Shown here piece by piece: positions 54,324 through 57,300 of a stretch of DNA of 64,000 nt. This DNA comes from Brachyhypopomus gauderio (lineage: Eukaryota; Chordata; Actinopteri; Gymnotiformes; Hypopomidae): positions 18,793,822-18,857,821 of the forward strand of contig NC_135223.1 in NCBI RefSeq assembly GCF_052324685.1. The letters are read 5' to 3'. Under the pieces are notes generated by a model, which did no database searches, had not been told where the DNA came from, and saw nothing but the letters and a program-made list of their open reading frames with translations. Both the position numbers and the translations under genes were made by a program. Numbering within the stretch: the stretch's first letter is position 1; each line of letters opens with the position of its first letter.

Positions 54324-57300
54324 CTGAAGGAAAACATATGTTTCACATATTAAGAAATATTAGATGAGACTATTGTTTACAGCACTTGGAAAAGGGCCTT
54401 GTTCTTTATTACTACTTTAATTATATTGCTATGCCATAATCACAGTTGCTGGAACCTCATTGTTTTTATAACTCAAGTTCATTTAGTTTTGGGTAGACCA
54501 TGGATATTTAGAATCCATTGATTTCAAGGCCTTTTGAAATTTCTTAATAATTGCAGATTCCAGGAAGACAAACTGTTTATAACAGCAATATTAATTGACA
54601 AACAAAGCAAAAAGCAATTATTGATGATTAGTTAACCATTGTTTTAAATAAATACATTCTCCACATATTGAATGTCACAGTGAATACATTTTGCATTGAC
54701 AACTTCACATATATGTATATAATAAATGCATAAAACATACCTGTTACGCTCCACAAATCCAGTTTTAGGGTTACCTGTAATTGGAAAAAGTAGAAATGAG
54801 TAAGACTATGTTCATAAATATTGTATTATCAAGTAGGTCATGTAGGAAATTAAAACTCTGTAACTATGACAAACACAAAGGCTACTTGGCCTTATAACCT
54901 TTGAAATTTGCAGAGAAACCATGGAAATCCCAGAAGCAGTGGTTACCCTTGCACAGGTTGACGGAGCATGCAGTGCATCCATACACACTTTCATGGCGTT
55001 GATTCTTTAGATTGCAGTTCTTACATCTTCTGGTCCTACAAGTAATTTTCTCTAAATGGTGCCTGACCCCCTCAAAGGTACCGGGATCTTCTCTACTACC
55101 CTCGTGTCTTTGCTGATGAATTTCGTCCTTGTTCATTTGGTTTTGGTGAGCTTGTCTTTCGGCACATTTGGCCAGGTGGTATCCCAGACGTCTACGGTAG
55201 CTGGCCTGTGAGAAGTGGCCACCCCGAAGCCACATGGGTGGGTTGCCTTTCCGAGTCTCTCGTAATACAATGAAAGAGTTTATGATGCTCAGGTTGACAA
55301 GGAACCAGAACAGCCGCCGCCAGTTTGTGTCTAGGACCAATCCACCCAACGGGTTGCAAGCCAGCAGTTGTTTGCAAATGTCCACACCACGCATGTTATC
55401 CTGAAGGAGTTTAAAAGCCAGAGGTCTTGAGATGGCGGACAGCTCACCTACCTTTGTGGTGGACCTCCTCCACACTGTGTCTGGTTGGCCAGCAACAGCA
55501 TTTGTTGAAAGACAGATCATCTCTTTTGCATCCCTCCACCTGGTAAGCAGCAGTGGGGGATGTTCTAACTGAATAAATGATCCAGGGCTCTCCAATAAAG
55601 GCTGATCCCAGACACCACTGGGCAGGACTGTGCTCTGAGTGGGGATGGAGCTGGAGCAATATATGTTCTTCTGGTTTAAATCCTTCATGAGGGGGACACT
55701 TACTAACATGCTGGATATGAAGATTTGGTGATGTTTTCCTTCAAGGCCTGCCATAAGGGTAGGCACAACCAAACTTCCCAAGTCTCCATGCTTTTCATTT
55801 TGGGTCAGGATTAGCAGTTTGTGACAGTACCCAGACTTGGAGTCACACATAAGCCATATTTGTGGCTGAGAGTTACTACATTTTCCCCCATAGGTTGCGT
55901 TCTCTTGTGTGGGCAGCAAAGCACGATCAATCGTCAAACACTTGTTTGGTTTGTTGGCCTTCTGCATGCTCAGCTCCAAGATTTTCAACATCGGCTGGAA
56001 GAAGGACAGTTTGTTCATACTGCGCTCACACTCCTCTGCAAGCATGCTGCTCATCCGAATATGAGAGTTGATCTGCTTGAAGCGTGTAGCAGACATGGTC
56101 CTGTAGAAGGTCGAACAATTATGGTAATGCTCCCAAGACCAGTACAACTCTGGCTCTGGAAGAGAGTGCAGCCCCATCAGGATACAGAGGCCTATGAATC
56201 CCTTCACCTCCTCATTTGTGAGAGGATGCCAGGTAGGATCCCCTCTGCCAACACAGTGCTGATATTTGGCATAAACATTTGTCTCGTGCACAATTAGGTC
56301 TATGAGGGTGTCAGGGAAGATTAGATGGAAGTAATCAAGGACATCGCTGCTCTTGGCCATGTAATGCTGGGGCCCATAGCTGTCTGTGAATTCTGGCATA
56401 GATCCTCCATCACTTGGAACCTTCCAGTAGTCCATGGACAACCAGTCAGGCTTTGCCACAACATCACTAGATCCTTCCACTTGTGGACCCTCCACCTCCT
56501 CCTCAACCTGGCAGAACTCAATATCAGTCTCCAGACACTCTGTAGGGGAGGGGAGGGATCATAGGAACACACAGTTAGTCTTCTTTTCGGAGCCCGATGA
56601 CCAATACTACTCCACTTTATAACACAATGCTCAGCGCTTAAGTGGTTCCCATGTACCACTCAGCTTTTTGAAAGAGTAAGGATTTCAGAAGTAGATGGCA
56701 ATTCCATGGCTTATAGTCCTTTTGTATATGATTTGTCTTTTTAAAAACAAAGCTTCTGTGATTCAGAACTCGTTGATGTCTCCATTCAGGTTGTGTACAG
56801 AAGGAACCGTGTATGCACAGATTGTCTTTCTCCCACACATACAGCTTTGACACAGGCTTGCTGTGACATAACAGTAATTTCTGTGAAGTAACACCAGGTA
56901 AAACACTTCTTATGAATAAAAGTCTCAAGATAACATCCCGTGTTCCAAGTTTATTTATATAAACTTGATAGTTCCGTACAAGTTCGACAGAAATGTTTGA
57001 GACAGATGAATGGTTAAAACCTGCAACACATTTACAATTGTTGTTCTTTACAGATATACAAATTCTTTACAGATACAGAAAAGTAGTGGAAAGAAACAAA
57101 AAGGTAATTTACAAGATGAAAATGTGAAAGAAATTGAAGAAAGTGAACTGGAAGGGCAGGTGATGTCTGGATGGATATTTGTGTAGGTATATATTACATA
57201 TTTTAGGCTTTAAGTGTTTGCATAAACATTTACAGTGTAAACATGAAATTTTAAAATCTATATCTGGTGAACCATATAGTAGGTTGTTATCCATTGAGCT

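Follow-up and report, generated by a model that had tools for sequence, protein, structure and literature searches.

We identified in an intron of a vertebrate pogz gene a piggyBac-derived exon that, judged from its sequence, is likely to be an alternative 3′ terminal exon of the kind known from CSB–PGBD3, encoding a DNA-binding but catalytically dead end. On balance, we think that a single vertebrate chromatin gene would here carry pogo and piggyBac ends as mutually exclusive spliced C-termini, and that the piggyBac end would have been kept as a non-catalytic DNA-binding domain. The window analysed (the whole stretch of 64,000 nucleotides, G000:C13:18793822-18857821, from a genome of 796.5 Mb in 840 contigs) holds on its minus strand 15 upstream pogz exons (58185..64000), the first of which touches the window edge and the last of which ends at a donor at 58185 (AAAG/GTGAGT). 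Elsewhere in the window, a PI4KB exon lies at 36330-37586, and open frames of about 150 codons occur on both strands at 29190-30286, between pi4kb and the left part of the window. The PI4KB exon, the multi-exon pogz and a second pogz on another contig are consistent with a fish genome, probably that of a teleost.

The piggyBac-derived exon (54882..56539, minus strand) comprises 552 codons and a TAG stop, with an acidic disordered start, a DDE_Tnp_1_7 core and a Cys-rich tail, and sits in the pogz intron that runs from the donor at 58185 to a microexon at 54774. It belongs to an open frame of 558 codons plus stop on the minus strand (56558-54882), which begins 19 nt before the exon, behind a TGA. 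Taken from 56539, the exon measures 1658 nt and joins the donor at 58185 in phase 1 (TLK/ECLETD..., open to the TAG), and with the 15 upstream pogz exons of the window it forms a single frame of 1303 aa. A preliminary description of this DNA had proposed one long uninterrupted exon on the strand of pogz, starting in a phase that fits the upstream pogz exon; we confirm both points, the open codons also matching PF13843. The ordinary pogz continuation, through the 34-nt microexon (54741..54774, minus strand) and a last exon with the pogo-derived HTH_Tnp_Tc5 and DDE_1 domains (52613..54323, minus strand), gives an open frame of 1332 aa for the part in the window.

The upstream pogz exons contain 10 C2H2-like finger patterns, a zf-POGZ double finger (PF25429, E 1.3e-17, residues 654-695 of the upstream-exon part) and a further finger, PF25414; a PDB search with these finger exons returned no matches. 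As expected earlier, the pogz zinc fingers would be retained in the predicted product, the double finger among them. In the part of PMC8775410 used here, the HP1-binding finger of POGZ precedes the proline-rich, CENPB and DDE parts, and because of this domain order the finger should stay in the fusion. Whereas known POGZ ends, according to the same part of that paper, in CENPB, DDE, coiled-coil and integrase-domain-binding parts, the predicted fusion should be without these.

The 3′ splice site of the piggyBac exon (56540..56600, minus strand) combines a CTAAC branch-point-like motif, whose A sits 36 nt upstream of the exon, with a long pyrimidine tract and CAG. By a simple home-made pyrimidine/AG score, this acceptor ranks in the top 0.30% of the window's 4013 minus-strand AGs and equals the two highest-scoring of 16 other pogz acceptors (range 0.30% to 39%), so that the good 3′ splice site noted earlier is upheld. 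The weakest point of the fusion model is its 3′ end, which is uncertain because neither AATAAA nor ATTAAA occurs between the piggyBac stop and the next pogz acceptor. The scan of this interval, with 11 hexamers, gave a single match, AATACA (54822..54827, minus strand), which we take to be a weak poly(A)-signal variant. An ATTAAA (54421) and an AATAAA (54410) in the following pogz intron (54405..54421, minus strand) could serve as alternative poly(A) signals, and hexamers of this kind are expected by chance in AT-rich DNA. A search of Rfam gave no matches.

The piggyBac identity of the exon is clear from its match to the Pfam family PF13843 (DDE_Tnp_1_7; E 1.2e-53, 183.2 bits, cut-off 22.4) and from its alignments with the solved transposases piggyBat (9c0f, E 8.7e-18) and T. 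ni piggyBac (6x67, E 2.2e-6). In the catalytic triad, the first and third Asp are kept and the second is replaced by Ser (residue 276), which faces Asp in both PDB alignments; the fourth Asp of the family is replaced by Lys. With two of four family aspartates changed, the exon product is therefore not an intact enzyme. The Cys-rich domain (residues 509-540) keeps 7/7 invariant columns, and the zf-Tnp_2 profile has no match in the exon at E 0.1; together with the PF13843 match, these columns agree with the description of the product as a piggyBac domain followed by a Cys-rich tail. An AlphaFold2 model built from eight sequences (pLDDT 69.2, pTM 0.68) has N-terminal helices, a strand/helix core at residues 201-372 and long C-terminal helices, the Cys-rich tail being moderately confident and residues 1-51 scoring below 50. 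Viral contigs yielded one pattern match and no relative, and phages and plasmids gave no match.

Lost catalytic aspartates and absent transposon ends are also the picture of a dead element, and the exon might be an unexpressed piggyBac fossil that is open by chance. On this account, selection is not required to explain the good acceptor or the phase match, which has a one-in-three chance, because piggyBac elements bring their own 3′ splice site, as stated in passages of PMC2268245. We judge such a fossil improbable from the way in which the exon has changed. As a reference, we took six intact genomic relatives (L002, L003, L004, L006, L007 and L008; L005, 91% identical to L003, was left out before counting), which have 52 invariant columns in common. 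Of these, 30 are kept in the exon and 22 are changed (three of the 22 are gaps), and all changes fall among the 37 columns of the core (residues 161-448), with 0/6 changed before it and 0/9 after it; the nine kept columns on the C-terminal side include all seven of the Cys-rich domain. This uneven loss between core and ends was equalled in 3 of 2000 runs of a scan permutation, which accounts for the choice of borders, and has a Fisher p of 3.7e-5 with the borders as seen.

When each reference sequence was left out in turn, with the exon not in the reference, losses were 27/79 for L002, 5/57 for L003, 0/52 for L004, 1/53 for L006, 9/61 for L007 and 23/75 for L008. Divergent intact relatives thus lose many columns too, and what distinguishes the exon is the position of its losses. 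Among six control copies, one (L023) has no losses and was excluded from the pooled test, and two of the other five are partly covered. These five diverged copies, pooled, lost 43/157 core and 13/60 end positions, without the split seen in the exon (p 0.49 between regions); with L023, the counts are 43/194 and 13/75. Compared with the five, the exon is more changed in the core (p 0.0004) and not clearly less changed in the ends (p 0.06). In a neutral simulation, which leaves indels uncounted, 3.5% of frames stayed open at 10% amino-acid change, 0.5% at 20%, and 0 of 200 at each of 30%, 42% and 59%. Unless the core had already undergone most of its change before the insertion, an unconstrained fossil seems unlikely; some of the change may be that old, and the divergent intact relatives L002 and L008 also lose many columns. 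The spared ends may instead reflect selection as part of a host gene.

As a DNA query against the genome, the exon finds itself as the sole match, and the intron upstream of it finds three further short matches with 74-77% identity. Neither TTAACCC nor GGGTTAA occurs in 54001-58300, and the one TTAA between the stop and the microexon pairs with the nine upstream TTAA sites at no more than 5 of 12 bases. A TTAACC at 57017 and a GGTTAA at 54637, with 9 bases in common, were considered as transposon ends and rejected, since 54637 lies past a microexon that the second pogz of the genome also has. The piggyBac end motifs used in such a search vary between families. The exon has a ratio of observed to expected CpG of 0.27 and the intron upstream of it one of 0.25, values weakly suggestive of long-resident DNA; the ratio ranges from 0.24 to 0.46 in five other intact relatives and reaches 0.94 in L002, the sole high one. 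The same intron holds an inverted repeat of 51 nt (57244-57294 and 58056-58106), whose arms are 73% complementary and separated by 761 nt; it may be an old short transposon with no relation to the piggyBac exon.

The nearest relative among the genome matches listed is L002 (G000:C3:32311178-32313193, minus strand), which is 36-39% identical to the exon, has a 660-aa frame with its own ATG and all four family aspartates, and was found as a single DNA copy; it has the appearance of either another domesticated PGBD gene or a solitary intact element. Its resemblance to a stand-alone gene lends some plausibility to a nested arrangement, in which the pogz intron would house an independent domesticated piggyBac gene with its own promoter and a non-coding first exon spliced to 56539, and with translation from an ATG at codon 36 or 48, both of which are in frame and retain the whole DDE_Tnp_1_7 match. 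We regard a nested gene as fairly improbable, as the upstream sequence has no CpG-rich stretch (CpG observed/expected 0.25, GC 37%), and both ATGs are preceded by a T at position -3, which under the Kozak rule makes a poor start context. Furthermore, the similarity to L002 begins before codon 36, the first in-frame ATG of the exon: the match runs from exon residue 4, about 120 residues behind the first Met of L002, and over the first 60 exon residues it is better than 2000 of 2000 shuffles. The first 35 residues alone are only weakly similar to L002 (18 of 2000 shuffles as good), and residues 20-43 alone are not significantly so (250 of 2000), so that translation could also begin at codon 36. 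A search for a remnant of the L002 N-terminus upstream of the exon gave a best E of 0.94. Because the homology precedes codon 36 and no such remnant was found upstream, the exon probably needs a start supplied by splicing. Placement of L002 itself inside a pogz copy was rejected, the pogz last-exon protein, as sole query, being unmatched in about 19 kb around it.

Another pogz copy, whose exon series and exon boundaries match those of the first, occupies G000:C6:13909394-13910623 and the sequence upstream (L012, L017 and L018), and the last exons of the two copies are about 39% identical. With boundaries read by eye, the corresponding finger exon of this copy has a phase-1 end and is followed by a 178-bp intron and a 25-nt microexon (L017:8592-8616), the counterpart of the 34-nt microexon, the phase being kept in both copies. 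The piggyBac exon is absent from this second copy, in which tblastn over 30 kb gives nothing better than E 4, and among the genome-wide matches listed (75 from 78 scored of 362 candidates) no piggyBac match lies near it. The exon may either have been gained by one pogz copy or lost from the other. The origin of POGZ is placed in lobe-finned fish in the section of PMC7386202 consulted, a date that would be too late if the present genome is that of a teleost.

We propose that a piggyBac element inserted long ago into one of two pogz copies, within an intron, and that its transposase frame, lying just behind a strong 3′ splice site, became an alternative 3′ terminal exon. Use of the acceptor ending at 56540 would give a protein with the POGZ zinc fingers and a piggyBac end, terminating at 54882, and skipping it for the acceptor ending at 54775 would give ordinary POGZ with its pogo end. 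The piggyBac end would have lost catalysis and retained the outline of its fold and its Cys-rich tail. Most likely, the fusion would be a non-catalytic chromatin regulator that takes partners bound by the POGZ fingers to other DNA sites; alternatively, it would compete with ordinary POGZ. As two acceptors compete after one donor, the exon could also be spliced in with its protein irrelevant, acting as a switch by which pogz transcripts are diverted and the level of ordinary POGZ falls, but a switch alone would not preserve 552 open codons or 15/15 invariant end positions, and we consider this very improbable.

The favoured reading, a piggyBac terminal exon joined to the POGZ fingers, has its closest parallel in CSB–PGBD3 (ERCC6–PGBD3) of higher primates, in which, according to passages of PMC2268245, a piggyBac element in an intron of a chromatin gene, on the same strand, brings along its own 3′ splice site and supplies one long alternative 3′ terminal exon, and the product has a host N-terminus and a piggyBac C-terminus. 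These passages describe piggyBac as a natural exon trap and the fusion as joining CSB exons 1-5 to PGBD3, with an abundance equal to that of CSB. One Asp of the triad is likewise lost in PGBD3, which nevertheless binds DNA, as reported in part of PMC3902484. From what is given in excerpts of PMC3459987, CSB–PGBD3 binds MER85 elements at sites without correlation to its expression changes, which correlate with recruitment via the host N-terminus to AP-1 and other factors; by analogy, the POGZ fingers could be as important to the action of the pogz fusion as the piggyBac tail. The present locus differs from CSB–PGBD3 in that a canonical poly(A) signal does not directly follow the frame, and that neither transposon ends nor related short elements can be recognised; its host is itself transposase-derived, so that one transposase end would replace another. 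Expression of CSB–PGBD3 has been shown, whereas the pogz–piggyBac fusion is predicted here from the DNA. The preliminary description had seen a capture of CSB–PGBD3 type, which stands as to frame, phase, splice signals, residue pattern and a second pogz without the exon; the splicing itself we infer.

Mammalian PGBD1 and PGBD2 also have the transposase in one large 3′ terminal exon after host exons (PMC2268245, in part), but there the transposase form is the main product, whereas ordinary pogz stays intact here; moreover, PGBD1 is described in a portion of PMC8086355 as having no recognisable Cys-rich domain, which the pogz piggyBac exon has. The upstream exons and the ordinary 3′ end belong to POGZ, with its zinc fingers and pogo/Passer-derived end. 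Domesticated PGBD proteins of tilapia, Pundamilia and fugu are listed in PMC8086355, the relevant portion of which does not give gene positions, and overlap with the pogz exon is possible. The preliminary description knew of no earlier account of a pogz–PGBD fusion, and none was found in the literature titles, abstract beginnings and passages covered, mostly from open papers. Within that literature, the mechanism is already known, and the host gene and the double capture were not found described, the twist being that the host is itself a captured transposase.

The human counterpart, POGZ, is tied to autism and intellectual disability. If our reading is true, the locus would be another piggyBac terminal-exon trap, far from primates, and a direct example of repeated transposase capture, in which a gene made from one transposase takes up another. 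It would also offer the same zinc-finger module with two DNA-targeting tails, under a splice switch that would be testable in an animal.
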